Source: a virus
Virus record (IMG/VR): IMGVR_UViG_3300025009_000098
Coordinates: 1-64,000 of that record
DNA: 64,000 nucleotides
Reading direction: 5' to 3' (one strand)
Below the pieces are notes generated by a model. The model worked only from the letters and a program-made list of their open reading frames with translations, was not told the DNA's origin and made no database searches. The translations under genes and the position numbers were made by a program. How positions within the stretch are numbered: the stretch's first letter is position 1; the number at the start of each line of letters is the position of its first letter. This document shows positions 24,327 to 49,803 of this stretch, piece by piece.

Positions 24327-24328
24327 AA

Positions 24329-29577: not shown

Positions 29578-29622
29578 ACCCTTACCTGTTCAGGCGGGCA
29601 AATACTACCTGAAGGAGAATAT

Positions 29623-30310: not shown

Positions 30311-30326
30311 CTTTTAAGGGGGATGT

Positions 30327-30704: not shown

Positions 30705-30707
30705 GGC

Positions 30708-31415: not shown

Positions 31416-32644
31416 AGTACGAGAACGGGGTCGCGACGCTGCACCCGTTCAGCGGGGGGATGAATAACCGGGCGCAGGAGGCCCGCCTTCCGGAAGGCTT
31501 CGTCCGCAACGCCGTCAACGCCGACTTCGTTGGGGAATCCCTGCGCAGGCGCAAGGGACTGACGAAAGTTCTCTCCTGTGTCAACTCAAAGGCAGGGTTC
31601 AGTTGCCCGCTTGGTAGGTTCTTTGTTGAGGGGCCATTCCTGAAGAAGTTCAATGCCAACAATACCGCAACGACTCTCTACGCAGGGATTACCGGCACAC
31701 ACTGCACCTACGATTACTTTAATGATGTGCTCTATTTCAGCGATGGCGTCGTCAACCTGAAGATCACTGCAAGCGGAGTGACGAAGTGGGGCATTGAGCC
31801 ACCGGCAGCGCCGGCCATCTCGAACGTATCAGGCACGTATACCGCAGGAGTATACCAGGCTGCATGTTGCTTCGTTGATGCCGCAGGGGTCGAATCAGGG
31901 GCATCCTCGGTAGTTTCTATCACGGTGAATGACAACTCAGGATTTGTCTTCACGTTGCCGACGATAACCGATCCGCAGGTTGAGGCAGTCCGTATTTACC
32001 TCAGTACGGCAAACGGGAGTGAACTGTACCACGTAGCCGATACCATACTCAGTTCCTACACCATCACCGCCGGCCGGTACGACGAAGGGACGACACTCGA
32101 AACACAACTCATCTCCCCTCCGCCAACTGGAATCAGAATTATCCGCCATTACAACGGGCGGTCTTATGTAGCCGACTCGCATGGTCGTGTCTGGTACTCA
32201 GAACCATACTCGTTTGACCAGTTCAAACTTGGCGACAACTATATTCAGGTTACCGACCCAGTAGCCATCATGGAGCCGGTGAAAAACGGGATATTCTTCG
32301 CCTACGGGAACAGGACTGAGTTTTGGGCAGGCAATCCTGAAGACGGATTTGAAGTCATTCCAAAGTTTGAATATGGGGGAGTGCTCGGCACAGGTGGCCC
32401 CATCCCCAATTCAGACAATGTCGCATGGCAGTCTCAGCGCGGCATGGTCGTCGGCACACCTGACGGGAACTGCAAGAATATTCAAGAGGAAAACGTAGCC
32501 GTTGAATCCGCTGTATCAGGGGCAACTCTGGTCAGAGAGAAGGACGGCATTCGTCAATTCATAGCAAGTCTTCATCAGCCGACCACATCGACAATGGCGG
32601 CATCATCATGGGTAGATGCCGAGGTGATTCGGCGGGGAGCGTAA
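31412..32644 (+). CDS. Tail (nozzle or propeller-type) protein
   Basis: 410 residues. FSGGMNNRAQEARLPEGFVR and RRRKGLTKVL form a start found in many phage tail proteins, followed by a beta-propeller-like body (FDQFKLGDNYIQVTDPVAIM, NGIFFAYGNRTEFWAG). Likely tail tube or nozzle (T7 gp12-like role), inferred from order after the adaptor. Confidence 0.6.
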   Translation: MKYENGVATLHPFSGGMNNRAQEARLPEGFVRNAVNADFVGESLRRRKGLTKVLSCVNSKAGFSCPLGRFFVEGPFLKKFNANNTATTLYAGITGTHCTYDYFNDVLYFSDGVVNLKITASGVTKWGIEPPAAPAISNVSGTYTAGVYQAACCFVDAAGVESGASSVVSITVNDNSGFVFTLPTITDPQVEAVRIYLSTANGSELYHVADTILSSYTITAGRYDEGTTLETQLISPPPTGIRIIRHYNGRSYVADSHGRVWYSEPYSFDQFKLGDNYIQVTDPVAIMEPVKNGIFFAYGNRTEFWAGNPEDGFEVIPKFEYGGVLGTGGPIPNSDNVAWQSQRGMVVGTPDGNCKNIQEENVAVESAVSGATLVREKDGIRQFIASLHQPTTSTMAASSWVDAEVIRRGA

Positions 32645-33151
32645 ATGGAAGAGTACAAGGTAGGGTTCACCTACACGGTTGAGCACATTGGACGAGACGG
32701 TCGGATAATTTCGACAACCGATACGTTTCATAACCTCATGCCGAACGCAGGGATTGACTACATGCTTTCTGCGGCGTTCAAGGGCGGATCGGCGTACACA
32801 ACTTGGTATCTGTTTGCGTATGGGGCAAATCGTGTCCCGCTTGCCACTGATACCATGATAACTCTGCTGGCAGACTGCCAAGAGGATACGGTCTACACGG
32901 TAGTTGGGGGGGCAAGGCAGGCAGTCACATTGTCAACGCCTTCACTCGGAGTTATGACCAACACGGCATCCCCGAACATTCTGGCGTTCCCATCAGCCTC
33001 GACTGTCAGGGGGTTAGGTTTGACAACGAATGTCACCAGGGGGAGTAATTCAGGCTTGCTGGTATCCGCTGCGCTACTGCCGTCTGTCAAAACTCCTGCT
33101 GCCGGGGAAGAACTCAAGTGTTACGTCGGCTTTGCCATCGTAGCAGTATAA
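32645..33151 (+). CDS. Virion-associated beta protein
   Basis: 168 residues starting MEEYKVGFTYTVEHIGRDGR; NLMPNAGIDYML is a motif I know from phage tail-associated proteins. Low Cys, beta-rich, no enzyme motif. GGGGAG precedes ATG 32645. Confidence 0.6.
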   Translation: MEEYKVGFTYTVEHIGRDGRIISTTDTFHNLMPNAGIDYMLSAAFKGGSAYTTWYLFAYGANRVPLATDTMITLLADCQEDTVYTVVGGARQAVTLSTPSLGVMTNTASPNILAFPSASTVRGLGLTTNVTRGSNSGLLVSAALLPSVKTPAAGEELKCYVGFAIVAV

Positions 33152-33161
33152 GGAGATAATC

Positions 33162-33554
33162 ATGGCATTCACTACACACGGCGGCAATCTCGCACTGGCT
33201 TTTCTTCTCACCGCAGGCACAGCAACCAGACCTACCGCTTGGCATGTGGCCCTTCACACTGGCGACCCAGGCGTAGCGGGCACAGCCAACGAACTCGTGG
33301 TCGGCACAGATCCAGATTATGTGCGGAAGTCAGTCACATTCGCCACTCCTGCATCAAGACAGGCGTTATCAGATGCGGCAGTCTCATGGACCGCAGGAAC
33401 GACAGCAGGTTACAACATTACGCATGTCTCTATCTGGGATGCGGCAACAGCCGGGAATTGTCTTCTCGCTGCTGCAAAACCTGTAGTTGTCGCTGTCACA
33501 ACCGGCAAGGTCACTACTTTTGCAATAGGCGAGATTATCGCCAACGCACTCTAA
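33162..33554 (+). CDS. Phage tail-fibre family protein
   Basis: 130 residues: WHVALHTGDPGVAGTANE, DYVRKSVTFATP and ITHVSIWDAATAGNCLL are the signature of a common small phage tail-fibre family. AAGGAG precedes ATG 33162. Probably a baseplate or tail-tip component. Confidence 0.75.
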   Translation: MAFTTHGGNLALAFLLTAGTATRPTAWHVALHTGDPGVAGTANELVVGTDPDYVRKSVTFATPASRQALSDAAVSWTAGTTAGYNITHVSIWDAATAGNCLLAAAKPVVVAVTTGKVTTFAIGEIIANAL

Positions 33555-33564
33555 GGAGTAATTA

Positions 33565-34029
33565 ATGAAAGTATCTACAGGATTACGTGTTCACCGGCTC
33601 GTTACCGGCTCGTTTAAGTCTGCGATGGACGGGGCAACTCTGAAACTCTATGGTTCTCCAACAAGTCAGGCTGCGGCAGATGCGCTTATCCCGGCTACGG
33701 CTGATGCTGCAATCGGGGCGGCTACGCTGATGTGTACCGTATCAGTCGGCGGGACTGGCACGGGTTTTACCTTTGAGGCTACTGCTCCAAGTGGGGTATT
33801 GAGTAAGGCATCCGCTGAATCGCTTACCGGGACACTGGTTGCTACAGGGTATTACTCATTTGCAAGGCTTGTCCTCTCCACAGACACCGGAGTATTGAGC
33901 ACCACTGAGAAACGGGCACAGTTCACAGTCGGCACCGTCAACAAGGAGGTCATTGTCAACTCGGCATACAAGACCTTGGGCGATGCTCAACCAGTAACCG
34001 CTTTCTTCATCGCTGATCCGGCTGAGTAA
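33565..34029 (+). CDS. Virion-associated beta protein
   Basis: 154 residues: STGLRVHRLVTGSFKSAMDG, FTFEATAPSGVLSKASAE and a C-terminal FTVGTVNKEVIVNSAY. Typical of uncharacterised phage tail proteins. AAGGAG precedes ATG 33565; TAATG links to the next gene. Confidence 0.6.
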   Translation: MKVSTGLRVHRLVTGSFKSAMDGATLKLYGSPTSQAAADALIPATADAAIGAATLMCTVSVGGTGTGFTFEATAPSGVLSKASAESLTGTLVATGYYSFARLVLSTDTGVLSTTEKRAQFTVGTVNKEVIVNSAYKTLGDAQPVTAFFIADPAE

Positions 34030-35045
34030 TGGATTACATTTATGATAATGGGCAACCTTGGAGGTTGCTTTATGACACCAATGCTGCCCAAACCGGAGAT
34101 ATAACTCCGTGGGTTGCTGGAACAGTCCTCCCCGCAGCCTCTGAGGGTGGTTGTGCGGTGATGACCAACGCGAATACGATATATTTGCTTGGGGGTGGCA
34201 CTGTAAATGTTTACAAGGCAACTATCACAAATGGTATCATCGGATCGTGGAGCACAGATACACCACTACCGGGGGGGGTGGCGAGGGGGGTCGCCTTCCT
34301 TACCAGAGGACGGGTATATATACTCGGAAACACGTTTTCATCCGCTGTATATACTGCCCCAGTAAACGATAATGGGGTGATAGGGACTTGGGCATCAGCA
34401 ACCCCCCTTTCAGTGGCAAGGTCAGATCACGCAGGGTTGATAATAAAGAACAGGGCGTATTTATTTGGAGGATACCTTAATTCTGGGGGGAACACAGCAA
34501 CAGTTATTACTGCTGTGGTAAATCAGGATGGGACTATCGGTACATGGTCTTCGTATGCCTCTCTTCCTGCCGCACTTCGCAGTCCTGTTGCGATTAAAAC
34601 GGAAAACAAAGTTTATATTATCGGTGGGGAAAATTCTACTGATATATATATGGCAGCAACTGACGAAGACGGATTGATAGGGGCTTGGTCAAATGTTGGG
34701 AATATCCCTAATGACATTAGTTACGCTCAAGCTGTAACTGTTCCTGGGATGGTTTATCTTCTTGGGGGGGCAGACCCTGCGATAAAAGATACTGTTTACA
34801 GGGCACCAATAGACATAAATGGAGATATCGGGGCGTGGTCATCTGGGACAGTTTTGCCCATATGGATGGCGATGTCTCAGGCGGTTGTGACTACCAGTAA
34901 AATTTATCTCCTTGGAGGGACCGATTGGAATGGTGTTCCGCTGAATACGGTTTACTCAGCCCCATTTGCAGGAGCCACGGCAAGTAGTTACTCGTTCAAC
35001 TTATTCTGGACAAACTTTCACGGCCAGACCGAGATTCTTCCATGA
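34029..35045 (+). CDS. Kelch-like beta-propeller tail protein
   Basis: 338 residues with at least five repeats of D-x-NGxIGxWS-x4-LP and a following K-x-YLLGG (TIYLLGGG, RVYILGN, RAYLFGGY, KVYIIGG, MVYLLGG, KIYLLGG). Kelch-type propellers bind proteins or sugars. In this position it is likely a receptor-binding or tail-tip protein. Coupled by TAATG and ATGA. Confidence 0.75.
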   Translation: MDYIYDNGQPWRLLYDTNAAQTGDITPWVAGTVLPAASEGGCAVMTNANTIYLLGGGTVNVYKATITNGIIGSWSTDTPLPGGVARGVAFLTRGRVYILGNTFSSAVYTAPVNDNGVIGTWASATPLSVARSDHAGLIIKNRAYLFGGYLNSGGNTATVITAVVNQDGTIGTWSSYASLPAALRSPVAIKTENKVYIIGGENSTDIYMAATDEDGLIGAWSNVGNIPNDISYAQAVTVPGMVYLLGGADPAIKDTVYRAPIDINGDIGAWSSGTVLPIWMAMSQAVVTTSKIYLLGGTDWNGVPLNTVYSAPFAGATASSYSFNLFWTNFHGQTEILP

Positions 35046-36853
35046 TAACCTTTGATGGCGATCGCAGCAAAAAGCGCAAATGGTTTGCGGAGAAGCAACT
35101 CGCTGTCATCAAGGATATTGATGTACCTGCCAAAGCCGTCAAGTGGGACGGCTTTACTTTTAAGGTCTGGCAGCAAGGCGAGTTGACAGGGGGCAGGGTA
35201 ACCGCTCCGATGGGTGCGGTTGTATCCTGCTCAAATGACGACGGGATAAGGTTGGCGGTAGCCGACTTCTGGGCTGGGGGGTTCACCTCTTATGTCCCGC
35301 TGAATGTCCTGTATTATGCTGCTGAAGGCAATACCCCAGTGATAAAAGCTATCAACCTTGCTTCTGCTGGGGATGTCGCTCTTGACGGCAACCAGACTGT
35401 GCAATTCAGACCCATGCTTGGAAGTTCCCCCTTTGGGCTGGTAGGTGGTGAAACCCCTGGCCCTGATACTGTGTGGGTTCAAGATTACGCCTGTGGCCCG
35501 AACCTCTTGCCCTACAAGGGGGCTGAAGGTTTTTGGCTCTCTGTGGCCGACAACCTGTTCATCGATTTTAACAATAGCGGAGTAGCTGATTTCCCAAAGT
35601 ACACCTTCGATAATACCCTGATGTTCTACTCTTCGAATGGGTCGAACCTTGGGGGAAGAAGGACCCTCACCTTGCAAGTTGGCGGTGGCGAAGAGATGGC
35701 AGGGGCAGTGCAGCCACTTAGGACTGCGCAACAACTGGCGAAAGATTGGCAGGTGCTGCATCAATTCTATTCCTATGAGGGACACAACAGCAAGTATATT
35801 TGCGCCTGGAATTTCCTGTTTCCGGCATATTCTCCTATATATCTGGAGACTATGATCCCGGAAGATACGATGCCAGCCGCCTTGAGGATAATCATTCTTG
35901 ATATCTCAGCGACCTCTTCATGGCCGATGGGGTATTACTCGTTTGCAGCAAACGGGGTACAGACTTTTCTGCATGTAAACAATGCTACAAACACTATCCC
36001 ATATAAGATAAGCAATCCTGCGGAGGACTGGTTTGTCGCGAATCCTGCTTATGAGAATTGGCGACTGTCGTTCTCTTTTGCAGTTGGAAGCACGGTATCG
36101 GTAATAGATTCGAGCCAGTTTATACTGTTACTTGATGGCCTCTCTGATGTAACCGTAATTGGGGATTGGAGGATGGCAAAGAGAATGCTTGAGCAACTTC
36201 TCCCGCACCCGAACAGCAATTTTCTCATTCCCTACGACTCTGTAATGTTCCATGCTCATGATGGCCTGATTTATACCTGGACCAGAAAGTACGGAGCGGT
36301 ATATTTCTCATCTACCGGGTTATTCAGTGCGACCATTTCTGTCCCGGTAGAGGTATCGAGTGAGGACGGAGTGCGCCCTGATATTACATATGCTGGGGCA
36401 TTTGAGTCGGGGAATCTATATCTGTGCATATGCAACAAAGTAAAGGAATCTGTCAGGGCGGTGTATTACGGCTCGCCGTTTACTTCATGGGTAAAACTTC
36501 CCGGAACAGATACAGGCCAAACCCTCGTTCATGTCAGGCCGGTTAAGGTAACCCCGGATGAGATAGTCCTACTCGGAGTAATACAAGAAACTATCGAGGT
36601 TGAAACAGTACCGACTGATATATACTCCCTCGCTTTTCTCAGGTGGCAGATGATTGCAGAGGTCCCGACGACTGCCCTTTGGCAAAAATTAGGAAGACTC
36701 CCTTTCACAGCAAGTGATAATGATAATTTCTCGGTAAGTTTGTTTGGAGTAGGGCAGTTTGTGGATGATCTGGAATCGTATCTTTCGCCGCCTCCTACTC
36801 TGCCTCAAACGCCTGTCGGCCCATACGCTAAATACGCAATAGGGATGCCATGA
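35042..36853 (+). CDS. Large tail protein of unknown fold
   Basis: 603 residues. N-terminal basic start (DGDRSKKRKWFAEKQLAVIK), then a Val/Gly/Tyr-rich beta body and a helical Pro-rich end (YLSPPPTLPQTPVGPYA). No signal peptide. AT-richer than the capsid genes, as are its two neighbours. Coupled by ATGA on both sides. Probably a tail or fibre component. Confidence 0.6.
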   Translation: MITFDGDRSKKRKWFAEKQLAVIKDIDVPAKAVKWDGFTFKVWQQGELTGGRVTAPMGAVVSCSNDDGIRLAVADFWAGGFTSYVPLNVLYYAAEGNTPVIKAINLASAGDVALDGNQTVQFRPMLGSSPFGLVGGETPGPDTVWVQDYACGPNLLPYKGAEGFWLSVADNLFIDFNNSGVADFPKYTFDNTLMFYSSNGSNLGGRRTLTLQVGGGEEMAGAVQPLRTAQQLAKDWQVLHQFYSYEGHNSKYICAWNFLFPAYSPIYLETMIPEDTMPAALRIIILDISATSSWPMGYYSFAANGVQTFLHVNNATNTIPYKISNPAEDWFVANPAYENWRLSFSFAVGSTVSVIDSSQFILLLDGLSDVTVIGDWRMAKRMLEQLLPHPNSNFLIPYDSVMFHAHDGLIYTWTRKYGAVYFSSTGLFSATISVPVEVSSEDGVRPDITYAGAFESGNLYLCICNKVKESVRAVYYGSPFTSWVKLPGTDTGQTLVHVRPVKVTPDEIVLLGVIQETIEVETVPTDIYSLAFLRWQMIAEVPTTALWQKLGRLPFTASDNDNFSVSLFGVGQFVDDLESYLSPPPTLPQTPVGPYAKYAIGMP

Positions 36854-38097
36854 CAATACTCTTAAAAGATATGGGCACTGCGGTTATCTCTGGTTACACC
36901 GGGACATCTGCGAATAATGCATACACTTCAACTTCAGTTGAGACAATTGATTCCCCATCAGTCGGCCCGACTGGGCAGATATATACAGTCACCCCAGATG
37001 GTAGGTTAAACCTTGATAGGACTACATACCCCAAGGGCATCTATCTTGCCACCGCTCAAGAATATGCTACAGTTGCAAACTCGCTTTACCCTGTAGGTAT
37101 GGGGCAGTCATTGTCATGGCAACTGGTCCAGATGGAAAATCTTGGTCGCTCTCTTGGATTCGGCACTCCAATGTACACCTTTACAGGGGGGTATTGGATG
37201 GCGATGTGGAACGGCGATAACGGGATAGGATTCTATATCTTTGTCGGCTACGATGTGAGCAACCCTCCGTCACAAACGCTTTACTACAATCCAGCGACGC
37301 AGACATATTCACCGACCCCGATTAATTACACTGATCAATATGCCGATGCTACATGGCTTGCTCAACAGGATGCTGATGAGACCACGCAGACAGCGGTAGA
37401 TGCTCTTGAAACGGAGATATTTGGCTCGGATGAAGGGTTTTATGTCCTTGGTGGGGGGTATAACGATCCTCTCTATGACCCTAACTCTGGGTTGCCTGAA
37501 AAGATCGACGAAGTAACAACCGCCACAGGAATTCCGTACTTTGTTTCTCCTACGGTGTCGGTCGAAACTACAGTCACCACGACGACGACCATACCGGCAA
37601 GTGAGGCAACCACCACAACGACTGTCATTCCATACTCCTATATCGTTTCCGTTACGAACCAAGGGTGGAACTCCTGGGCGCGGAGTATAGACCCCCTTGC
37701 AGCAGGAGAATATATCCTCTTCACTATCATGTCAGGGGTTCATGCCGCACAACTTGCGATCGGCCCAAAAGGAAAAGAAGGAAATGGGATTAATACTTTC
37801 TCGCATGCTCTGATGATTGACTCTGAAGGAATCCATGTCTACGAGAACGGGGCAAAGAGTTCGACGATGAAACTGGCGCAGGTCGCTACGTCATTACTCA
37901 GAATATACCGCCACGAAGACAACACCATTCATTATGTAGTCACTACTGGAACGGAGACAATCGTCCACAGAAGCGCACTGGCAAGCCCATATCCCTTGGT
38001 CGTGCCGCTGTACGTGTACGGGCATCTCTATACCAGTGGCGATAAGGTTCTTTCGGCAAGGTTCAGAAGTGGCGAGATCCACTACGGGAGCGTCTGA
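36850..38097 (+). CDS. Tail protein with Thr-rich linker
   Basis: 415 residues. About residue 239-256 is a Thr-rich linker (TTVTTTTTIPASEATTTTTV) between an N-terminal domain and a C-terminal lectin-like domain (SYIVSVTNQGWNSWARSIDP, FTIMSGVHAAQLAIG). Such two-domain layouts fit fibres. Unknown ligand. Confidence 0.6.
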   Translation: MTILLKDMGTAVISGYTGTSANNAYTSTSVETIDSPSVGPTGQIYTVTPDGRLNLDRTTYPKGIYLATAQEYATVANSLYPVGMGQSLSWQLVQMENLGRSLGFGTPMYTFTGGYWMAMWNGDNGIGFYIFVGYDVSNPPSQTLYYNPATQTYSPTPINYTDQYADATWLAQQDADETTQTAVDALETEIFGSDEGFYVLGGGYNDPLYDPNSGLPEKIDEVTTATGIPYFVSPTVSVETTVTTTTTIPASEATTTTTVIPYSYIVSVTNQGWNSWARSIDPLAAGEYILFTIMSGVHAAQLAIGPKGKEGNGINTFSHALMIDSEGIHVYENGAKSSTMKLAQVATSLLRIYRHEDNTIHYVVTTGTETIVHRSALASPYPLVVPLYVYGHLYTSGDKVLSARFRSGEIHYGSV

Positions 38098-39293
38098 TGG
38101 ATTTAGAAGTCACGCTTAATATCATCGATTACGCAGTCCTATTCTCCAACTCGGTCGAGTTGACTGTCCATGAGTCGGAGAGCATGACGTTCAACTGTGA
38201 GGTTGGCTTGTACGCCAACTCAACTTCAGATTACGTACGCGCCTCTCTCCCAGCACTGGCTGGATTTGTCAGAGAATCGGCGGGGACTTATGGTGCAGTC
38301 TATGCTGAACTTCCGGCTATGACTGCGATGATTGAGGAAGGAGCCTATGTTCCCCCTGCCTTGCAGTATGCCTTCGGCATCCTCCCCCCGTTGACGGCGT
38401 TCATCTCGATCGGCACGGAAAGTCCTGTTTCGGTCGATGCAACTCTCCCGGCACTTCAAGGCAGAGCATACGAGAGCGCATATGGCGAAGTCTATGCGAC
38501 TCTTCCGAGTATGCAGGGGTTTGCCTTTGAAGATCCGAACCCAGGGGAAGCGTGGTGCGTATCGGTGATGTATGCTCTGGACGGAGCAGTTGCGCCAATG
38601 CAGCACATCGTTTTTCTCAACGCGAACGGTCAGGTTGTAGATACCTACTCGGCAACGCGGACCTTGATTGCGACCGTGATTGAACAGATTCAGGCAAGTG
38701 GAACATTCACAGTTCTTGGTACATACGTTGCATCCATGACAGCCTCGCTCTCAGCATCCACAAACCAGTTGGCAACTATAGGCCGTGTTGTTGGGGAAAC
38801 AACGGTCTACTCTCCTTCCCTTGATGATGACGGCAGGGTGTGGGTGGTCAATATGGATCCAAATGCTGCTGGTCAATATGCTTCAGGGCAGTATGACAAT
38901 TACGGCTTCAACTCGTTCTTTGAGAGCGATGGAAAGTATTACGGCGTAGCAGATGACGGAATCTACGAACTCGCCGGGTCCACCGATGCTGGCAGCACCA
39001 TCGACTGGCAAGTAGACTTTGGCACCAGCAACTGTGGCATTCCGGCCAGAAAGAAGATTCTCAATGTCTATGTCGGGGTAACTACTGGCGGCACCACCTA
39101 CATGAAGGTGAACGTCGACGGTACTGAGCACACCTACCGGGTCGAGGCCTGCACTCGCGGCCCCTACGATTTCCGAGCCAAGATCCCGCACGACATCCAG
39201 GGGCATCAGTGGGGCTTTACCCTGATGTCGTCCGATGACACCGACCTGATCGGGGTGGAGTTCGTCCCGGCAAACCTTACCAGGAGGATATGA
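38097..39293 (+). CDS. Tail protein with short internal repeats
   Basis: 398 residues. Residues about 40-145 contain repeated ELPAM/TLPAL/TLPSM-x-GF/GRA-x-E units roughly 30 residues apart. The C-terminal domain (DGIYELAGSTDAG, WQVDFGTSNCGIPARKKILN) is a conserved phage tail domain. TGATG with the previous gene, GGAGG before the next. Confidence 0.6.
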   Translation: MDLEVTLNIIDYAVLFSNSVELTVHESESMTFNCEVGLYANSTSDYVRASLPALAGFVRESAGTYGAVYAELPAMTAMIEEGAYVPPALQYAFGILPPLTAFISIGTESPVSVDATLPALQGRAYESAYGEVYATLPSMQGFAFEDPNPGEAWCVSVMYALDGAVAPMQHIVFLNANGQVVDTYSATRTLIATVIEQIQASGTFTVLGTYVASMTASLSASTNQLATIGRVVGETTVYSPSLDDDGRVWVVNMDPNAAGQYASGQYDNYGFNSFFESDGKYYGVADDGIYELAGSTDAGSTIDWQVDFGTSNCGIPARKKILNVYVGVTTGGTTYMKVNVDGTEHTYRVEACTRGPYDFRAKIPHDIQGHQWGFTLMSSDDTDLIGVEFVPANLTRRI

Positions 39294-39294
39294 C

Positions 39295-40497
39295 ATGCCC
39301 ACCGCCGAAGAAACGATCAATGCGATAATCGCCAACGCCCTCCTTACGGCGCAGACATACACGACCCAGGTTGCAGACGCCGCGAATGATCTAATCGGCG
39401 TCAATGCTGGATTCTATATTGACCCTCCATCCACGACGACAGGCTTTGCCTTGTCTGAACTTACCACCCCCCTCACAGATATAGCGTTTGTGCCAACAGT
39501 TACCCCTGCGCCAAGCACGGCCACAGGGTTTGCGCCCGCTGCTGTCGAGCCTACAATTCCAAGCGTTGCAGATGCGACGATAACCTACGATGCCCAACTA
39601 GCCAAATTAATCGCTATGTTATCCGCCCAGCTAGCCGGGTTTTTCGCCAGCTATTACCCCTTGGCGAGCGACGCTTTTGATGAAGCTACAACTTGGCTGG
39701 TCAATACCATCACCAATGGCGGTACCGGGATCAATCAGGCGATCTGGGATCAGGTCTGGCAGCGAGGGAGGGAGAATGTCATCGCGGACGGCCGCAGAGT
39801 GCAGGCGCAGATTGTCACCGGCTTCGCTGCAAAAGGCATAATGCTTCCTGCCGGCGCGATGATCAAGAAAATATCTGAGTCGTTGTTTGATCAAGCCGGA
39901 AAGGTGGGGCAGATGGCCACCGCCAATGCCATGAAGCAGGTTGAGATCGAGGTTGAGACAATTAAGTTTGCGATCGGCAAAGCCCTCGAGTCTCGCCAGA
40001 TGGCGATGCAGGCCGCTGCTGATTACATTCGGGCCATAGCCACGGCTCCGGATGCGGCGGTGCGGGTGGCCAGTATCAACACTGATACGCAGGCGAAGAT
40101 GATGGGGGCTGCTGCTGAGTTCTATAGGGCGCGACTTAACAGAGATGATTTAGTGCTGCAATCAAAAATAGCCACCCTGACAGCCGGGACCGATATTTAC
40201 CGTTCGCAAATGGCTAAGGATGATCTTTCCCTGAAGGCAAAAATTGCTGAGGTCAGTAGCGGGGTAGATGTATATCGAGCCACCCTTACGAGGGACGAGT
40301 TGGATCTCAAAGCTAAGACATCTGACATCACGGCCGGCATAGATGTCTACAAGCACCGCCGGGAGAATGCCACTGAGAACGACCGGGTCGAGGTCCAGGC
40401 CTTGACCGCAGCAGCTGACGCGTTCGCCAGGACTGCCTCGGCAGCGCTTGCCAGCCTGAACAGCATCGTCAGTTCGTCTGTCAACTCGTTTGCTTGA
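39295..40497 (+). CDS. Coiled-coil tail or internal virion protein
   Basis: 400 residues, largely helical after a Pro/Thr-rich N-terminus. IWDQVWQRGRENVIADGRRV and GFAAKGIMLPAGAMI are typical of a conserved phage virion family. Three near-repeats of DDLxLKxKIA-x-xSxGxDVYR occur near 280-355. Possibly an elongated ejection or neck protein. Confidence 0.6.
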   Translation: MPTAEETINAIIANALLTAQTYTTQVADAANDLIGVNAGFYIDPPSTTTGFALSELTTPLTDIAFVPTVTPAPSTATGFAPAAVEPTIPSVADATITYDAQLAKLIAMLSAQLAGFFASYYPLASDAFDEATTWLVNTITNGGTGINQAIWDQVWQRGRENVIADGRRVQAQIVTGFAAKGIMLPAGAMIKKISESLFDQAGKVGQMATANAMKQVEIEVETIKFAIGKALESRQMAMQAAADYIRAIATAPDAAVRVASINTDTQAKMMGAAAEFYRARLNRDDLVLQSKIATLTAGTDIYRSQMAKDDLSLKAKIAEVSSGVDVYRATLTRDELDLKAKTSDITAGIDVYKHRRENATENDRVEVQALTAAADAFARTASAALASLNSIVSSSVNSFA

Positions 40498-40522
40498 TTT
40501 ATATATGAGAATACTCTATAGT
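40494..40522 (+). promoter_or_regulatory. Promoter for the last two late genes
   Basis: TTGATT (40494-40499), 17-nt spacer, TATAGT (40517-40522). It overlaps the stop of the previous gene and lies 34 nt before ATG 40556. Confidence 0.55.
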
Positions 40523-40555
40523 TAAGCCACACCCTAACCAAGAAGGAGATGGCAG

Positions 40556-41647
40556 ATGGCATATTTGACACCGGAAGAGAGAATAGCAGCTGCCGTCGAA
40601 AGTGGCTGGCGCGGATTGGCCAACCGTTTCGGTACCGCCCGGGCCGGCACGCCGCAGGAAAAGTTCAACGCTCCCCCCGAACCTCCGCCGGCCGTTGCTC
40701 CGGCAGTCGCCCCCGCCGAGCGGGCGAAGGTGAAGGCCAACAGCTTTACTACCACCCTCCCCAATCAGGACCTTACGGCGAATCACAGAGGGTTACGCGC
40801 AGCCCCCGCCGCTCCTGTCCGTTCCGTACCGACCAGCAATTTCATCATGGATAAGTCAACAGGCAACACTGTGTCGATGAATCCAGACGGAAGTATGCGC
40901 TGGTCCGACGTTGCCGGCGAGACGATCGCCCGGCCGCAGGCCCCAATGATCGAGGCTCGTCCCGCCACCTCTGGAATGGTCCGGCCCACCGCCCAGATCG
41001 ACCGCTACAATGCCGCCCAGGAAGTCCCCCGCGGTCAGTTCTTCGGCGTGCGGCCGCTGCCCGGCGCCGGCGGAGACAACCTCACAGACAAGAGTATCGG
41101 CGGGCTGGTAGTAGACGGCATCAGGCAGCGCAGGGCTCAGATCGCCGCCACCCAGGACCTCACCGCCAGGGGGCAGGACGCCGAGCTTGTCGCGGCCGGG
41201 ATGCGGGAGCGCACCGCCGGGGAGCAGAACAGGATCCTCGCCGAGCGGGCCACTTCAGAGATGGGCCTTGATCGGGCGCAGACTGCCGCCGCCGAGCAGG
41301 AGCTGGCCCAGGCCGACGAGGTCAGAGGGTTGATTGATCAATTTGACACTGAGACCGATAAGGGCATCCGCCAGCGCCTTAAGGAGCGGATCAACCTGTT
41401 GACCGGCCGGAAGGAGGAACAGATCGCGCCGCACTTCACGACTGAGGAACTGCAGGGACTCGAGGGCGGATCGCGGGGGGTGGTGATCGTCCCTGACCCG
41501 GCCGCACCCGGAGGCTTCCGCAAGATTGTACCGCAAGAGAGCGGAGGTTCGGCGCTGCCGCCGGTAGCCGACCGGGTCGAGGGTAAGGTCTACCCCTTGC
41601 CGCAGGGTAATTTCAGATGGGTCAAGGGTAAGTGGGAGGCCGAGTAA
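40556..41647 (+). CDS. Helical, proline-rich virion protein
   Basis: 363 residues. Pro/Ala-rich segment (NAPPEPPPAVAPAVAPAE) after a short helical start, then long helices (ELVAAGMRERTAGEQNRILAE, IRQRLKERINLLTGRKEEQI) and a C-terminal beta end (YPLPQGNFRWVKGKWE). AAGGAG precedes ATG 40556. Ahead of the giant protein; may be a co-ejected internal protein. Confidence 0.6.
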   Translation: MAYLTPEERIAAAVESGWRGLANRFGTARAGTPQEKFNAPPEPPPAVAPAVAPAERAKVKANSFTTTLPNQDLTANHRGLRAAPAAPVRSVPTSNFIMDKSTGNTVSMNPDGSMRWSDVAGETIARPQAPMIEARPATSGMVRPTAQIDRYNAAQEVPRGQFFGVRPLPGAGGDNLTDKSIGGLVVDGIRQRRAQIAATQDLTARGQDAELVAAGMRERTAGEQNRILAERATSEMGLDRAQTAAAEQELAQADEVRGLIDQFDTETDKGIRQRLKERINLLTGRKEEQIAPHFTTEELQGLEGGSRGVVIVPDPAAPGGFRKIVPQESGGSALPPVADRVEGKVYPLPQGNFRWVKGKWEAE

Positions 41648-44600
41648 TGGCTTACACCGATGAGGAACTTCTCGCCCTGCCGGTAGCCGGCAAGACATCG
41701 TTCACTGACGAAGAACTGCTCAATATGCCGTCTTCGGCAACTGTCCCACCGCCGGCCGGCATCCGCCGTTCCGCAACCGGAGAGATAGCCACCGGGTTAA
41801 AGCGCGGCGTCATTGGCGAATTGCCCAGGATGGTCGGGCAGGCAGCCAAGTGGGCAACGGAGCCAGCGTCGGGCATTTACAGGAAAGGGCAGCAATTAGT
41901 TACGGCCGCTGACGAACGTCTCGCCAGACCTGAGAACCAGCTTAATCCGGAAGGCCACAACGTCGTCACCAACGCCCTCGCCTCCGGCGCGGAGATGCTC
42001 GCCCCGTCGGTGGCTATCCCGGCAGCGACTGGACTCGCTCTGGCAGCGGCTCCGGAGGTAGCAGTCAGTGGCGCCGTAGGCTTAGGGATTGCCTCTCTGG
42101 CCGGCGCAGTGCCGATGGGCATGGCGCAGGCGCAGGATACTTTCGAGAATGTCAAGGTTGCAGGCGGAACGGATGAGTCGGCACGAGCCGCGGGCTGGAA
42201 GTCCGGAGCAATTGAGGCCGGCGGCGAGACCGTCGGCACATACCTCGGCGGAAAGCTGCTGGGCATAGGTGGCAAGGTACTCGCTGGGGAAGGAGTATTG
42301 AAGCCTTTCGCCAAGCAGTTAGGCAAGACCGCAGTCGGCGAGGTCGGCACCGAGATGGGCCAGAGCTACGGCGAGGCCGCAGTGGAGAAAGGCGCCGGAG
42401 TGAATGTCGATCCATGGCAGCAGGCTAAGGCCGCCATAGCCCCGACCCTCGGCATGACTGCCCTGCTGTCACCGTTCGGACTTGCCGGGCAATATCGCAA
42501 CTCCAGACGGGCTCGCGCTCAAGAAGTCCTCGACGATACTCCAAGCGAAGACCCGGTAACCGACCGGGTGAGTGGCGAGCTGCTGACCACCCTGCTGCCC
42601 GAGGGCATAGTCCTCAACGGCACCAAGAACAGCATGGCCAATGTCAGTTTCCCAACCGCCGACGGCCAGAGCGCGACGATCAATATCCCGATCGACGAGG
42701 TCAGTAAACTCCTCGCCGCCAACAAGCCGGACGAGATCGCTGCCGCCCTTGAGTGGGTCGAGCAGGAGCGGGCGGCGAAGATTTACAATAAGACGAAGAA
42801 CCTGCCGACGGAAGATTACTCCGGCGTCACCCTGCCCGGGACCATCGAAGACAAGACAATCAGGGGTCTGGCGCAGGGCGGGATGCGCAGCTTGACCACC
42901 GACGCGGCCAAGGCGCCGGCCGAGCAACTGCTGGCAGAGGCCGAGGAGGCCATGCAGCGCCGCAGGGCTGAGTTGTACAACCAGACCCGTAACCTGCCGG
43001 CAGAGGACTACTCGGGCGTGGAGGTGCCGCCGTCCCGGCAGCAGCCCTCCCCCGGTCTCGGGATGCGCTTCAGCCAGCCGCCGGTAAAGCCGGATGTCAG
43101 CAAGACCCCGGTCACCGGCTACGAGGCCGATCTGGTCAAGGTCGCCGACACCCTGGGCAACGAGCACTTCGTCCAGAAACGCGAACTTGCCGGCAAGGGC
43201 AAGGAGATCGCCCGCTATACCGAGGACGGCCGGAGAACGGTTACCACCATCCCACGTGCTTCGCTGGTGCAGTCACAGCCTGCTACTGTGAATTACACCC
43301 GTCTTCCCGACGACCCGGCCAAACCCGACACGGTGCAGTATAATGTTAGGGGAGAAGTCCGCACTTTCGCTCCGGCGGAGGGGATGAGCAAGGCGGAGGT
43401 CGAGGAGGCCCTCGCCGCCCGGAAAGGCCCCGGGTCGCAGGTTGCCTGGTTGCAGAAGAATACTGTTGAGGTGAAGGATGAAGATCAGCAAGCGGGGGCT
43501 ACGCAGGCTGAAGTTAAAACCGATCAAGCTGGACCTGTCGAACCTACAGCCGCTGCCTCTGGATCTGGCGTGCAACCGCCAGCCGCAGAAATCCATACTG
43601 CCACCGGAGATGGTAAAGCTGAAGTAGCCACCACTGCAGATGCGCCCCGGCCGAACAGAAAGTATAGCGACGAGGAAGCGGTAAAAGGGTTGCAGTACAA
43701 ACGGGAGGGGCATACTGGAGATATGCAGAACATCCTGGATATAACTGAAGAGACGGTCGAGGTAGCACAGGTAGCTGTCAAAGCAGGCGAGTCACTGCAG
43801 GATGCGTATGACAGGTATGTGTCATTCACAAGAGGGTACCCAGATGTCAGTATTGAGGGGTTCGCTGATATTTATGCTAATGTAGGCGGTGACATTGGAA
43901 CGCAAAAATCAGTATCTATCGGCAGGAGTATTACCGAGAACGCTGCAAAAGCTCCTGCCGTAGAGAAAAGCACCCCCTCGGCCTCTGCCAAGGCACCGGC
44001 AAGCCCACCGCAGGGGGTCACTTCTTCCGAGGAAGTCTACAATAACGGCGGCACTGGTGAATTGATGCTGCTGAGGAAAAGGTCTGATGGACTTGTAATG
44101 TTGCAAGATACCAAAGACAACGTCCTCGGCACGTTCCCCGATGCGAAGCAGGCAGCAACCACAGCGAAAGAGATGGGCTATAGTTGGCGGGATGAGACCG
44201 GCCAGTTGCCCAAACGCTCCGCTGTGGAGAAGCCTACCAAGGCCAAGGCAGCCAAGCCGAAGCCCGCAGCAGCCAAACCCCCCACCCTCCCCGGCGTTAA
44301 GTACGACGGCAAGAACCAGTTCACCATCACCGAGGGTAAAGCCAAAGGTGCGTCGTTCACTGTCAAGGACCTGAGCGAACAGGAAGTCAAGAAGGCCCAC
44401 GACAAAACGGTCAAGGGGTTCGTCAGGTCGAAGACTGCCCCCAAGGCCTCCGTTGTCGCCCGGGTCGCGGCCAGGAAACACGAGATGCTCGCCCCCACCG
44501 TGGCCGAGATCATCGCCGAGGACGGCACCAAGGAGTTCAAGCGGGTGCCTTCAGTCGAGGTCTACACCGCCCTCGCCGAGGCGCGCCGGCAGGCAGACCC

Positions 44601-47600
44601 AAAAGCCAAGATCGACGACCGACTGTTCTATGAGCTGGCGAGCATGAGTGAGAAGGACTACCAGGAGGTACTGCCCCTGGACTCGGTTGAGTCGGAGATG
44701 GTGGCTTTTCACGGCACACCGCACACTGTCGACAAGTTCTCGATGTCGAAGGTAGGCACCGGTGAGGGGGCGCAGGCTTACGGGCACGGTCTCTATTTCT
44801 CGTCGGCTAAGAGTGTCGCCGAATGGTATCGGGATAAACTGGCTGAGTGGCAACCGACCGTAGAGGACATGCGGGATTACTTCAAGCCAGGGAATATTGT
44901 TCCAGCTTACGGAGGGCAGGACAGGGTTGTAAAGTTTTACGAGGCAAGTGATGGTAGTTGGACCGGCATGGGCGAGTGGGCCGTTGAGGTCCGCGCTGTT
45001 GATGAGAACGGTAATGACATACGAGGTGAACGGAACAGGATACACGGCACAACGCCAAAGAAGAATAACTTTGAACGAATTACAGGGAGAAAAGCAAGCG
45101 CTGGCAAACTCTACCAAGTAGACCTCGCCCCCGCCGAAGATGAGTATCTTCTCTGGGATCGTCCGCTGAGCGAGCAGTCGGAGAAGGTGAAGGCTGCGCT
45201 GAAACCTGTACTGAAAAATCTACAGGACCAGTATGACTATGCCGCGAGTCTGGTCAGGGGTGGAAAATCTCAAAATGCGTTAGAATTAACCGGCAGAGAT
45301 TTGTATGAGAGAGGTTTGTTACAGGGTGGAGTTGATTCAAATGAGTTCAAGGGGAAGCTTGACGACAAAGGAAAATCAGAATACCTCCACTCCCTCGGTA
45401 TCCGTGGAATCAAGTATCTCGACGGGACAAGCCGGGGGAAGGGTGAAGGGAACTTCAACTATGTCATCTTCAACGAGGATGACATCAGCATCCTCTCATC
45501 TGAAAAGAAAACCCTCGGCGGCGACCCGGATACCCAGGAGTCCCAAACTATCCAGGATGGGCTCGAAGGCAAGACCGCCCTCGAAGCCACCAAGTTCTTG
45601 GTCGACAACGCCCCGACCGCCTCCAACCGCATCATCGCCGAGAAGGTCAGGAATGTCTTGCAGAGGCTGACCGCTCAAGGCATCAAGTTCAACTTCAAGA
45701 TCGCCCATGTCGGCGATCAGGTGCCGGCGTCGTTGGCCAACGCCCGCGGGCTGTCCTCGACCAAGTTCAATGAGACCCCGATGACCGTCGATGTCTGGCT
45801 GAACGGCGCCGATGTCACAGGTAAGAGCGGCATGTCCTACGAGGTCGCCCTGCATGAGTTTATCCACGCTGCCACCCAGGCTGCCCTGCACCTAGGCAAC
45901 CGGCGCGCCGCAGCCGGCACCGCCACGGCCAAGGCAGTCGCTGACCTGTACTCCGTGACTAACGAGATCATCGCCCACTTCAACGCCCGCATCGAAGCCA
46001 ACAAGAACGACATGGGCAATCTCACCGCACTTGAGCGGGCGATCTACGAGAACCGCACCAACGCCCTGGCCAACCCACACGAGATCCTGGCCTGGACATT
46101 GTCGAACAAGGAGATGCAGGAGTACCTCGAGACCATCAAGTCCGGACCCGAGACTCTATGGTCCAAGTTCGTCGCGTCCATCCGCACCCTGCTCGGCCTG
46201 CCGGTCTCCTCGAACACCGCCCTCGCTAAAGTCCTCGCCGCCAGCGAGACGATCTTCGACGCGCCGGTGCTTGAGTTGCTGCAAGCAGCGAAAACAGGGA
46301 CCCCGGCGACGGTGGCTCAGACTACGGCGATGAGTGTTGAGGATGTGCAAAAAGCTGCTAAAGCAGTATGGTCGGATGAGCGTATAGACGCTGAGATTGG
46401 GTATGCAGCTTATGACGATGGCAGAACGAAGGCAGTAGTAGGGTTCGTAAACCCGAAAGAGTTTGTAGCCTCGACAGTAGATGAACAATTTAAAGCTCGA
46501 AAGATAACTAGAGAAGCTGGGAATCTTGATCTTGCGAAACTCCGCAGAGAGTCTCAGTCGATGTTTCTGTATGTTTCTGAGGATAGGAAGATTATTGATC
46601 ACGAGGGGCGACATCGCATGGCGGCACTGGCCGCTGCAGGCATTGAGCGCGTACCTGTTATTCTTGACTATCGCGCTGGGAAAATGCGGTTTGACAGCAA
46701 GTCGGTGAACCTCATGGGTCAAGTTTTCCCTATGGGGATGGGTAAAGATTTGATCGTCCATGATGTCACTCCACTTACTTTTGAGAACAAGCGCAAAATA
46801 GCCAAGATGATGTCTGGAGATGATGTAGCAGTGAGCTTCTACCAGTCCTCAGTCGAATCCCAGATGATCTCCAGTCTTAATACTGCGGTCAAGGACGCCA
46901 GAACGACCGCTGCCAACGCCCTCGCATCTCTTAACAACCCCAAGGACGCCCTGCACGACAAGTGGCTGCAGCACGCACCCAAGGTCCTCGCTGTCACCCC
47001 GCTCTCCCATCTCGCTCAGACCTACGGCAAGACCATCCACTGGATCAAGGACCTGGCCAAGCACACCAACGAGTTGGAGGCTACCACTACCCGGCTGATC
47101 GATGACTTCTTCGCCATTCACGAAGAAGCAACTAAGGCTGCCGAGTCTGAGACCGGCATCGACAAGTTCAACCGGGCCATGCTGGTCGCCACCTTCAACC
47201 AGATGAACCCGACCAAAGAACTCAGCAAACAGGACTGGGTCTCGGACAAGCTCCCCCCCGGCCAGCAGATCGTCGATGCCCAGAAGAAATGGGTCGATGC
47301 CGGGATGCAGAAAGCCACCGGGATGACATTCACTCAAGCCTACGCTGAGTCCAAAAAAGAGTACGAGGCCCTCGGCCCCAAGACGCAAAAGCAGATGGTC
47401 GAGATCGCCAAGTACCTCGGCAAGCTGCGAGACATGGACCGCGACGCCTCCCTGGCCTTTATCGAGAAGGTATCGAAAGAGGGCTCCGACTTGCGCAAGT
47501 CCCTAATGGAGCAGTTCAATAACTCCTTCAGTAGATTGAAAGGTATGTACTTCCCTCTCAGCCGCTACGGCACGTTCGTCCTGCAGTTCACCGGCACTGA

Positions 47601-49803
47601 CGGCCGGCCGGTCATCGAGCAGTTCGACTCGATCAGGGAACGCAAGGACGCCATGCTGACCGCCATCGCCAACGGCGTCGACGAGCAGACGATCGTGCTG
47701 AGGATGCAGGATGAGAACCCGGCCGGTGCCGTGGCCATCCCCTCTGAGCTGCTGACCAAGCTGCGCGAAGCCATTACGACGCAATATATGACCGATGTCG
47801 ACAAGAAGGACAAGGAGGCCGTCGCCGCGGTCAACAACCAGATCGAGGCTGCCCTTGCTGGCTTCAACCAGACCGTGCTGCGTTGGCTGCCGGATACCTC
47901 CGCGCTGAAGAACTCGATGACCCGCAAGAGCGTGCTCGGGGCCAACCCGGACATGCTGCGCAGCGTCAACGGCTATGTGCAGCGACATGCCGGCAGGATC
48001 GCCTGGAGCACGGTCGGCCGCCAGATCGAGGATGATATCGCCGGCTTTGCCAATGAGAATAAGGAAATGGCCAAGGTGGGGGATGTCGACCTGACCATGC
48101 GCGGTCACCTCCTCAACAACTCTCGAATGTGGCTGCAGGCGGTGCAGAAGGAGCGGGTCAGTGCCCTGACCTCACATATCGGCAAGCTGATGACCGGCTA
48201 CTTCATGACTTCGCCGTCGACTTTCCTGGTGCAGATGACTCAGTTGCCGACCCTGACCCTGCCGCACCTTGCCGCCAAGTATAAATCCTACGGCAAGGCG
48301 GCCTCGGCTATGTCGACGGCACTGGGACAAGCCTTCTCGAAGAAGTTCGCCAAGGAGGCGATGCGCGGCGACGTCAAGGTCAATGAGGTCTACGACGCCA
48401 TCCACCGCAAGGTCAGCCATAAGGACAGGACGGCCGGCAAGGCAGTCGGCACTGACTGGTTCACCCAGAGCGAGAAGCTGGCCATGGTCGGCCGGCTGAC
48501 CGACTACCAGAAGCAACTGCTCGCCCTGCGCGAAGCGGAGTCCAGGAACCTCCTCGACATCTCGGCGGTCCATGAGGCGATCGATGTCTCACAGGGCAAC
48601 CAGCAGGGGATGCTCGGTAAGGCGATGCGGCTGGCAATGCTGCCCATGCAGCACGGCGAGCTGGCCTCCCGTAAAGCTGCCATCCTCGCCTCGTTCAATC
48701 TCGCATCCACCAGCAAGAAGGACTTCTTCGAGGCGATGGACGAGACCGCCGATATCATCGACAAGACGATCTACAACTTCAGCAAGCGGGATAAGGGCTG
48801 GTTGATGCAGAAGGACCTGATGCGGATCCCCTTCACCTTCCAGACCTACCGGATCAAGACCGCGCTCAGGCTGGGACTGCTGTTCCGCGACTCGCTGCGC
48901 ACCTTCAAGAACGAAGGCCTTGAGAAGGGCCTCGCCGACGCATCTACCAAGGAGTTCATCGGCATCTTCATGACCACCGGCGCCCTGGCCGGTTCTCTCG
49001 GTGTCCCCTTCGCCGGCACCGCCATGGGGATCATCTCCCTACTGTTCAGCAGTGACGATGACGAGCCCAAGGACAAGAAGCTCGAGTACACCAACTTCCT
49101 CACCGAGACTTTCGGTCAGACGGTCGGCGACATCCTGGCCTACGGCCTGCCGACGGTCGCCGGCGTGAACCTGTCGAGACGTATCGGCATGGGCGACATC
49201 TACGGGGCCTCCTCACAGCCGCCGGAGCAACTGCACGGTGCAGGCTTGGCCGCCTGGTGGGCTGGTAACCTGATCGGCCCGTCGTACTCGATCGCCGAGT
49301 CCTGGGTGAAGGGCTACGACGAGATTATGAACAAGGGGAATTACATGAAGGGCCTTGAGACCGCCAGCCCAAAACCGATCAAGGATGTCTTCAAGGCGAT
49401 CAGGACGGCAACTGACGGGGTGAAGGACGGCGCCGGCAAGAAGCTGCTGGACGACAGCCAGATCGGGGCGGACGAGATATTGATGATCGCTCTGGGGTTC
49501 GCTCCCGACGAGATCACCCGAGCCCAGAACGCCGAGCGGAGCCTGCGAGGGATATCCGGACGGATTTCAACACGGCGGGGCAGGTTGATCAGGCAGGCGG
49601 CGGAGGGAGTCATCGACGGGGATGCTTCAGATGCACTGGCGGAGATCAGAGAGTTTAATGCCAAGATGCCGCGCTTCGCCATCGGCGGGCGGGATATCAA
49701 ACCGGCCGTGCGCAAGATCCTCAAGGGAGAACTCGGCACGACCGGGCGGCGACAGAGGGATGTGGCTACTCAGTTTGGGGTTCCTGTATATCTTGGGGAG
49801 TAA
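41647..49803 (+). CDS. Giant polyvalent protein with ADP-ribosyltransferase-like domain
   Basis: 2718 residues (ATG 41647, TAATG with the previous stop; an upstream in-frame start is rejected). It begins with duplicated TDEELL-x-LP motifs (residues 4-30), then a hydrophobic helical segment (about 122-163). At 1022-1282 lies an ART-PolyVal-like domain (FHGTPHTVDKFSMSKVGTG, AYGHGLYFSSAKSVAEWYRD, GIRGIKYLDG). Around 1403 an HEFIH zinc-peptidase signature occurs. Around 1651 a ParB-like DHEGRHRMAAL motif lies in an AT-richer block. Near the C-terminus a hydrophobic helix (about 2437-2468) precedes a mainly helical tail. Such polyvalent proteins are ejected with phage DNA and modify host targets. 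No RNA-polymerase motif of the N4 type was found. Confidence 0.85.
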   Translation: MAYTDEELLALPVAGKTSFTDEELLNMPSSATVPPPAGIRRSATGEIATGLKRGVIGELPRMVGQAAKWATEPASGIYRKGQQLVTAADERLARPENQLNPEGHNVVTNALASGAEMLAPSVAIPAATGLALAAAPEVAVSGAVGLGIASLAGAVPMGMAQAQDTFENVKVAGGTDESARAAGWKSGAIEAGGETVGTYLGGKLLGIGGKVLAGEGVLKPFAKQLGKTAVGEVGTEMGQSYGEAAVEKGAGVNVDPWQQAKAAIAPTLGMTALLSPFGLAGQYRNSRRARAQEVLDDTPSEDPVTDRVSGELLTTLLPEGIVLNGTKNSMANVSFPTADGQSATINIPIDEVSKLLAANKPDEIAAALEWVEQERAAKIYNKTKNLPTEDYSGVTLPGTIEDKTIRGLAQGGMRSLTTDAAKAPAEQLLAEAEEAMQRRRAELYNQTRNLPAEDYSGVEVPPSRQQPSPGLGMRFSQPPVKPDVSKTPVTGYEADLVKVADTLGNEHFVQKRELAGKGKEIARYTEDGRRTVTTIPRASLVQSQPATVNYTRLPDDPAKPDTVQYNVRGEVRTFAPAEGMSKAEVEEALAARKGPGSQVAWLQKNTVEVKDEDQQAGATQAEVKTDQAGPVEPTAAASGSGVQPPAAEIHTATGDGKAEVATTADAPRPNRKYSDEEAVKGLQYKREGHTGDMQNILDITEETVEVAQVAVKAGESLQDAYDRYVSFTRGYPDVSIEGFADIYANVGGDIGTQKSVSIGRSITENAAKAPAVEKSTPSASAKAPASPPQGVTSSEEVYNNGGTGELMLLRKRSDGLVMLQDTKDNVLGTFPDAKQAATTAKEMGYSWRDETGQLPKRSAVEKPTKAKAAKPKPAAAKPPTLPGVKYDGKNQFTITEGKAKGASFTVKDLSEQEVKKAHDKTVKGFVRSKTAPKASVVARVAARKHEMLAPTVAEIIAEDGTKEFKRVPSVEVYTALAEARRQADPKAKIDDRLFYELASMSEKDYQEVLPLDSVESEMVAFHGTPHTVDKFSMSKVGTGEGAQAYGHGLYFSSAKSVAEWYRDKLAEWQPTVEDMRDYFKPGNIVPAYGGQDRVVKFYEASDGSWTGMGEWAVEVRAVDENGNDIRGERNRIHGTTPKKNNFERITGRKASAGKLYQVDLAPAEDEYLLWDRPLSEQSEKVKAALKPVLKNLQDQYDYAASLVRGGKSQNALELTGRDLYERGLLQGGVDSNEFKGKLDDKGKSEYLHSLGIRGIKYLDGTSRGKGEGNFNYVIFNEDDISILSSEKKTLGGDPDTQESQTIQDGLEGKTALEATKFLVDNAPTASNRIIAEKVRNVLQRLTAQGIKFNFKIAHVGDQVPASLANARGLSSTKFNETPMTVDVWLNGADVTGKSGMSYEVALHEFIHAATQAALHLGNRRAAAGTATAKAVADLYSVTNEIIAHFNARIEANKNDMGNLTALERAIYENRTNALANPHEILAWTLSNKEMQEYLETIKSGPETLWSKFVASIRTLLGLPVSSNTALAKVLAASETIFDAPVLELLQAAKTGTPATVAQTTAMSVEDVQKAAKAVWSDERIDAEIGYAAYDDGRTKAVVGFVNPKEFVASTVDEQFKARKITREAGNLDLAKLRRESQSMFLYVSEDRKIIDHEGRHRMAALAAAGIERVPVILDYRAGKMRFDSKSVNLMGQVFPMGMGKDLIVHDVTPLTFENKRKIAKMMSGDDVAVSFYQSSVESQMISSLNTAVKDARTTAANALASLNNPKDALHDKWLQHAPKVLAVTPLSHLAQTYGKTIHWIKDLAKHTNELEATTTRLIDDFFAIHEEATKAAESETGIDKFNRAMLVATFNQMNPTKELSKQDWVSDKLPPGQQIVDAQKKWVDAGMQKATGMTFTQAYAESKKEYEALGPKTQKQMVEIAKYLGKLRDMDRDASLAFIEKVSKEGSDLRKSLMEQFNNSFSRLKGMYFPLSRYGTFVLQFTGTDGRPVIEQFDSIRERKDAMLTAIANGVDEQTIVLRMQDENPAGAVAIPSELLTKLREAITTQYMTDVDKKDKEAVAAVNNQIEAALAGFNQTVLRWLPDTSALKNSMTRKSVLGANPDMLRSVNGYVQRHAGRIAWSTVGRQIEDDIAGFANENKEMAKVGDVDLTMRGHLLNNSRMWLQAVQKERVSALTSHIGKLMTGYFMTSPSTFLVQMTQLPTLTLPHLAAKYKSYGKAASAMSTALGQAFSKKFAKEAMRGDVKVNEVYDAIHRKVSHKDRTAGKAVGTDWFTQSEKLAMVGRLTDYQKQLLALREAESRNLLDISAVHEAIDVSQGNQQGMLGKAMRLAMLPMQHGELASRKAAILASFNLASTSKKDFFEAMDETADIIDKTIYNFSKRDKGWLMQKDLMRIPFTFQTYRIKTALRLGLLFRDSLRTFKNEGLEKGLADASTKEFIGIFMTTGALAGSLGVPFAGTAMGIISLLFSSDDDEPKDKKLEYTNFLTETFGQTVGDILAYGLPTVAGVNLSRRIGMGDIYGASSQPPEQLHGAGLAAWWAGNLIGPSYSIAESWVKGYDEIMNKGNYMKGLETASPKPIKDVFKAIRTATDGVKDGAGKKLLDDSQIGADEILMIALGFAPDEITRAQNAERSLRGISGRISTRRGRLIRQAAEGVIDGDASDALAEIREFNAKMPRFAIGGRDIKPAVRKILKGELGTTGRRQRDVATQFGVPVYLGE

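Follow-up and report, generated by a model that had tools for sequence, protein, structure and literature searches.

A giant phage polyvalent protein with a constant zincin-bearing chassis and exchangeable cargo domains

The DNA analysed here (the window) covers 64 kb of an IMG/VR virus record with a total length of 65,168 bases. Its plus strand carries a gene for a protein of 2718 residues (41647..49803), an open frame free of stops whose ATG overlaps the stop codon of the preceding gene (TAATG). This giant gene is the last of a run of structural genes that it closes (22878..41647, plus strand), including, all on the plus strand, genes for the terminase (22878-24326), a portal-type (T7-type) head-tail adaptor (24329-26404), the major head protein (27974-28975), head closure (31412-32644) and a virion structural protein (38097-39293). 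Minus-strand genes come next, among them an endolysin-like gene (51400-52401) and a primase-helicase-like gene (54019-56901). A tblastn search of 50,697 phage records gave no match for two genes upstream of the giant gene (35042-36853 and 40556-41647), and we consider both to be candidates for additional ejection proteins. The structural module also encodes a kelch-type beta-propeller (NANM-like) protein of 338 residues (34029-35045), and an HNH homing-endonuclease-like gene (21943-22878) lies immediately 5' of the terminase gene. PADLOC returned no match.

The 2718-residue product is a polyvalent protein, a kind already known (Iyer et al., 2017; PMC5512222), with at least two unrelated domain activities in one phage polypeptide: here an ART, a zincin, a ParB/Srx-like domain and LPD39. 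A previous inspection of the DNA without database searches (the sequence-only reading) had proposed a polyvalent protein that joins ART-PolyVal-like, HEFIH and DHEGRHRM domains in a single frame, and this architecture is real. All parts lie on the plus strand. The N-terminal module (residues 1-285; 41647..42501) is one of two exchangeable types and has hydrophobic, TM-like windows with starts at residues 117-142. It is followed by a variable linker, slot 0 (residues 561-890; 43327..44316; GC 0.562), which has no recognised domain in the window protein, and then by the ART in slot 1 (residues about 1021-1285; 44706..45501), the zincin (MPTase) region (residues 1286-1567; 45502..46345) and the ParB/Srx-like domain in slot 2 (residues about 1568-1733; 46346..46847), hereafter the HEGRHR domain. 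LPD39 (residues 1766-1969; 46942..47553; Pfam PF18858, 28.8 bits against a cut-off of 27) leads into the C-terminus of the chassis, the PLxRFG "tail-700" region (residues 1966-2689; 47542..49713), with PLSRYG at residues 1970-1975. This region matches NCBIfam NF032893 (E 2.1e-85; 287.6 bits against a cut-off of 100) and PHROG 10089 (E 2.2e-37), and a profile of the C-terminal chassis (A5) matches POI1126 gp30 with E 7e-77. PHROGs labels the C-terminus "DarB-like antirestriction". The match covers positions 3841-4612 of a 4647-position profile, and a Pfam search of the window protein at E up to 10 found neither adenine methylase nor SNF2 helicase modules. Thus, the label reflects a shared C-terminus only, and we rejected it as a function.

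The comparison set consisted of the window protein and twelve related proteins with usable sequence in IMG/VR (13 in total); the adaptor gene is 72-77% identical in the four relative contigs where it was found. Alignments among the relatives break at the same places. DNA identity between the window and L005 is 88-90% up to position 44705 and resumes at 45502, so that at this first site 796 nt encoding the ART in the window stand against 4 nt in L005. At the second site, window positions 46346-46847, which encode the ParB-like domain, face an unrelated 643-nt stretch encoding an ART in L005. An independent pair, L003 and L012 (about 86-90% identity), differs in 15 versus 349 residues at site 1 and in 3 versus 182 residues at site 2. 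Site 1 is filled in three of seven comparable proteins and empty in the other four. Site 2 holds the ParB-like domain in the window protein, an ART in L005, L007 and L012, a divergent ART in L018, a different domain in L014 and nothing in L003, L020, L132 and L134. A constant chassis composed of the zincin, LPD39 and the 700-residue PLxRFG region therefore bears cargo at fixed sites that flank the zincin.

Some of these variants deserve description in their own right. The slot 2 domain of L014 (L014:9011-9883; residues about 1180-1470 of the protein encoded at L014:5474-12883) has the motifs HFSQYTEPG ... RYDLSKQVD and no Pfam match. L020 carries tandem zincins (HEIVH and HELVH; L020:9473-9955) and has both cargo sites empty. 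A third, looser site lies upstream in slot 0, where L012 has an ART and L003 a domain that is likely a 2H phosphoesterase (L003:12347-12721; residues about 801-925 of the protein encoded at L003:9947-16852). The latter has the motifs PHITV ... PHATIAYV, a Pfam E value of 3.1e-4 that falls below the cut-off, and weak matches to 2_5_RNA_ligase2 and Acb1. The 2H phosphoesterases are the superfamily of the anti-CBASS protein Acb1, and judging from these motifs the L003 domain is possibly an anti-CBASS-type cargo. The N-terminal 285 residues fall into one type in the window protein, L003 and L007 (71-79% identity) and another in L005, L014, L018 and L020 (53-61% among themselves). Searches of bacterial and archaeal genomes returned no relative of the chassis, and thus no host can be named.

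Base composition follows the same division. GC content is 0.633 in the N-terminal module, 0.616 in the zincin and 0.603 in the C-terminal chassis, whereas the ART has 0.515 and the ParB-like cassette 0.472; the lowest window in the N- and C-terminal chassis is 0.577 at the length of the ART and 0.556 at that of the ParB-like cassette. Cargo in L003, L005, L007 and L012 has a GC content of 0.38-0.54 versus 0.59-0.63 for the chassis, and L014 is less clear (0.554 versus 0.559-0.644). The sequence-only reading had treated the ART, the peptidase and the ParB-like domain as three equivalent weapons. This does not hold, given that GC, conservation and the presence of an HExxH zincin in all 13 proteins place the peptidase in the constant chassis; we accordingly rejected the HEFIH domain as a cargo candidate. 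By these comparisons, the ART and ParB-like domains are exchangeable cargo.

The ART assignment is based on a partial Pfam match, on homologues and on its absence from L005. Within the window protein the Pfam ART-PolyVal model matches residues 1018-1063 with E 1.6e-4 and 22.9 bits, which is below the cut-off of 31.2 and covers model positions 7-46 only, whereas the ARTs of relatives exceed that cut-off (87.7 bits in L007, 69.2 in L005 and 104 in L012). A full-length homologue occurs in the archaeal virus vir555 (38% identity, E 2e-42). H1022, Y1050 and D1278/D1279 align with the expected H-Y-D triad, which characterises the ARTs of polyvalent proteins (Iyer et al.; PMC5512222), and are conserved in the window protein (P0001), L007 and L012. 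The ART-PolyVal-like domain of the sequence-only reading is real, although its Pfam match is incomplete and sub-threshold. No PDB relatives of the ART were found by sequence, and in a structure model of the ART plus zincin the ART part mostly had pLDDT below 40, with an uninformative Foldseek list. The vir555 homologue (L009:4660-10584, a Methanomicrobiales virus) is a 1974-residue protein with an internal virion protein gene two genes away, and its slot-1-type ART means that this cargo type is common to bacterial and archaeal viruses.

The HEGRHR motif (residues 1652-1657; 46600-46617, plus strand) lies within DHEGRHRMAAL (residues 1651-1661); the HEGRH in it resembles HExxH by chance. A single-sequence scan with the domain retrieved no relatives, and the family was reached with a DNA pattern for DHEGRHRM followed by a five-sequence alignment. 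This yielded at least 148 viral loci in IMG/VR; since sampling began from the motif HEGRHRM, the family is probably larger than this, and the conservation of the motif is partly an effect of the search. Eighty of the 148 loci were kept, giving 64 distinct copies. Complete frames contain 49 of the 64, and 39 of these 49 are at least 1000 aa long (median 2814 aa); 29 of the 64 share a frame with an ART recognised by our ART profiles. Short frames of about 450-850 aa in L047, L049, L051, L052 and L059 join the HEGRHR domain to a slot-1-type ART, showing that the two cargo types also exist as a fused pair, and a frame of at least 3728 aa in L078 (match 7658-8131) has two HEGRHR domains.

No significant match to Pfam or to PHROGs was obtained for 50 family members. 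The weak Pfam matches were to PFIN (plasmid fertility inhibition factor; seven of the 50, best E 0.014) and, in one member each, to ParB_N (0.15) and ParBc_2 (0.16). P1 DdrB, as a single sequence, had no significant match to the family with hhalign or hmmsearch, and no PDB relatives were found by sequence. The AlphaFold2 model of the HEGRHR domain is confident (pLDDT 89.4, pTM 0.85), so that structure prediction, a check proposed by the sequence-only reading, succeeded for this domain but not for the ART. Foldseek against the PDB placed mostly Noc, PadC and SbnI at the top, with weak, non-significant E values (Foldseek E 0.7). All 24 entries listed by VIA-align (Z at least 2) are ParB/sulfiredoxin structures, the best being Osa (Z 4.7, rmsd 4.4 over 124 residues), which is a low score in absolute terms. 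Despite the low scores, no unrelated fold was listed and the PFIN hint from sequence is concordant; on the strength of the model, the domain likely belongs to the ParB/Srx superfamily. Osa and other ParB/Srx domains have been reported as DNases and NTPases (PMC5512222). The DHEGRHRMAAL motif had been called nuclease-like: it does mark a domain with at least 148 relatives, but a nuclease is suggested only by the modelled fold, with which NTP binding or hydrolysis would be equally compatible.

The zincin region was recognised from a seven-copy alignment and by homology to PDB 9sfn chain G. HEFIH (residues 1403-1407; 45853-45867) and E1479 in EILAW (46081-46083), the candidate third ligand, are on the plus strand and invariant across the seven aligned copies; an HEXXH plus glutamate arrangement was likewise described by Iyer et al. 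(PMC5512222). HExxH motifs of differing types occur in the zincin part of 13 of 13 proteins, versus 0.018 per protein in shuffled sequences, and a third-ligand pattern was recognised in nine of the 13. The zinc-peptidase signature of the sequence-only reading is thus borne out, and the catalytic residues it had suggested looking for are present in both the ART and the peptidase.

The zincin profile matches PDB 9sfn chain G ("Internal virion protein", 1337 residues) with E 1.6e-33, and the window protein as a single sequence does so with E 2.5e-20 over residues 1328-1557. A further match of the zincin is to the "DNA ejectosome component" of PJNP013, a phiKMV-like phage (L008:4948-8961; E 6e-38), in which the zincin motif HEAVH ... 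KELVAW is intact. The annotation consulted for these phiKMV-type internal virion proteins is silent on the intact zincin motif that both carry. Internal virion proteins of phiKMV have been detected in virions by mass spectrometry (PMC3765740), and the zincin homology points indirectly to packaging of the giant protein in the virion. Burkholderia phage JC1 encodes a DarB-like protein of 4515 residues in the same gene position as the giant gene, and this protein is abundant in CsCl-purified virions (51 unique peptides; PMC9144972). However, neither hhalign nor a profile search detected homology between JC1 gp69 and the chassis, and JC1 thus serves as an analogy only. By sequence, the window protein is probably a virion component that enters the bacterium together with the DNA.

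We therefore propose, with a probability of roughly 0.6, that the protein is a virion-packaged carrier whose zincin releases cargo; its packaging, ejection, cleavage, activities and targets are what we infer here. Standing last in the structural module, the gene would be expressed late, and its product would be packaged inside the virion. The chassis (the hydrophobic N-terminal module, zincin, LPD39 and PLxRFG region) would join in ejection and enter the envelope or cytoplasm with the first DNA. The zincin, which sits between both cargo sites, would then cut the chain and free the cargo, whereupon the ART may ADP-ribosylate host proteins and the HEGRHR domain may act on nucleotides or DNA, like Osa in plasmid conflict. 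In-frame recombination at the zincin-flanking sites would exchange cargo among phages of this lineage. A bolder form of the carrier model, which we offer only tentatively, is a plug-in platform in which a constant ejection chassis cannot dispense with its protease and takes up cargo, at acceptor sites flanking that protease, by precise in-frame exchange, and in which the HEGRHR domains are an uncatalogued, Osa-like ParB/Srx effector family directed against nucleotides or competing DNA at entry.

The main rival, which we regard as unlikely, is that the whole chain is ejected uncut and forms part of the DNA channel, with the zincin being structural or digesting envelope proteins and the inserts being tolerated decorations. 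The phiKMV-type proteins (PJNP013 and 9sfn chain G) do retain a zincin within a 1337-residue chain, the N4 vRNAP with its MPTase is packaged unprocessed (Iyer et al.; PMC5512222), and in L003 and L020 both sites 1 and 2 are empty. However, the inserts retain their predicted catalytic residues, and other known conflict domains (ART, 2H) take their place in relatives, which would scarcely be expected of neutral inserts, and the HExxH zincin is retained in all 13 proteins. We consider it improbable that the protein is instead a late intracellular one, modifying host components while virions are assembled or the cell is lysed, as might be suggested by the adjoining minus-strand replication and lysis genes (primase-helicase and endolysin-like): the zincin is homologous to internal virion proteins, the gene closes the structural module, and the DarB-like giant in the same gene position in JC1 is located in virions (PMC9144972). 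Finally, that the cargo is decaying mosaic material that serves no function at present and was spread by recombination into permissive sites is very improbable, for despite the low GC, the presence/absence polymorphism and an ART-like copy in slot 2 of L018 with LWRG in place of YHGT as its first motif, every junction is in frame, distant copies share the H, Y, D triad and the HEGRHR motif, and the cargo copies read lie within open frames.

Judged against the tools and literature searched, three findings are new: the cargo sites defined at nucleotide level on a constant chassis, the homology that connects the zincin with an internal virion protein of solved structure, and a widely distributed ParB/Srx-like family outside Pfam and PHROGs, the two libraries tested. 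Polyvalent proteins had been predicted from domain networks across distant genomes, where the exchange of parts was hard to see. Relatives with 88-90% identical flanks now show one and the same site with cargo, without it or with a substitute, on a chassis that remains constant and keeps a zincin, and the cargo borders can be tested in work on cargo and protease release. The HEGRHR family, whose many viral loci mostly form part of giant proteins, offers a new subject for functional assays, and the link between the zincin and internal virion proteins connects proteins of this class with the machinery of DNA ejection.

Among known systems, the polyvalent proteins of Iyer et al. (PMC5512222) are alike in their disparate enzyme domains, zincin hub, HYD2-type ART, ParB-superfamily domain, LPD and structural-gene context. 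In contrast to these, the ParB/Srx domain of the window looks like a family of its own (50 members gave no significant match in Pfam, and none was found to P1 DdrB), and cargo is resolved to the nucleotide at fixed chassis sites in close relatives. The phiKMV-type internal virion protein shares a homologous zincin, with HExxH and a downstream E, and a position among structural genes, but at 1337 aa it is half the length of the window protein and the match is confined to the zincin; searches of PJNP013 with the ParB-like and chassis profiles gave no match. The DarB-like/PLxRFG giants of podophages of about 60 kb (POI1126 gp30, Parlo, SopranoGao and Skulduggery) have the C-terminal chassis (NF032893) in common with the window protein and were described with methylase/SNF2 helicase modules, whereas none was found here. 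Osa, the plasmid fertility-inhibition factor (PDB 4ovb/4o7k), is the best structural match to the HEGRHR domain (Z 4.7/4.6 over 124-125 residues, 12-13% identity), yet it is a stand-alone plasmid protein, whereas the HEGRHR domain resides in a phage carrier. Lastly, T4 Alt differs from the window ART in clade (R-S-E versus H-Y-D; PMC5512222) and in architecture, but if the carrier model is right, both would be ARTs delivered with the phage DNA.
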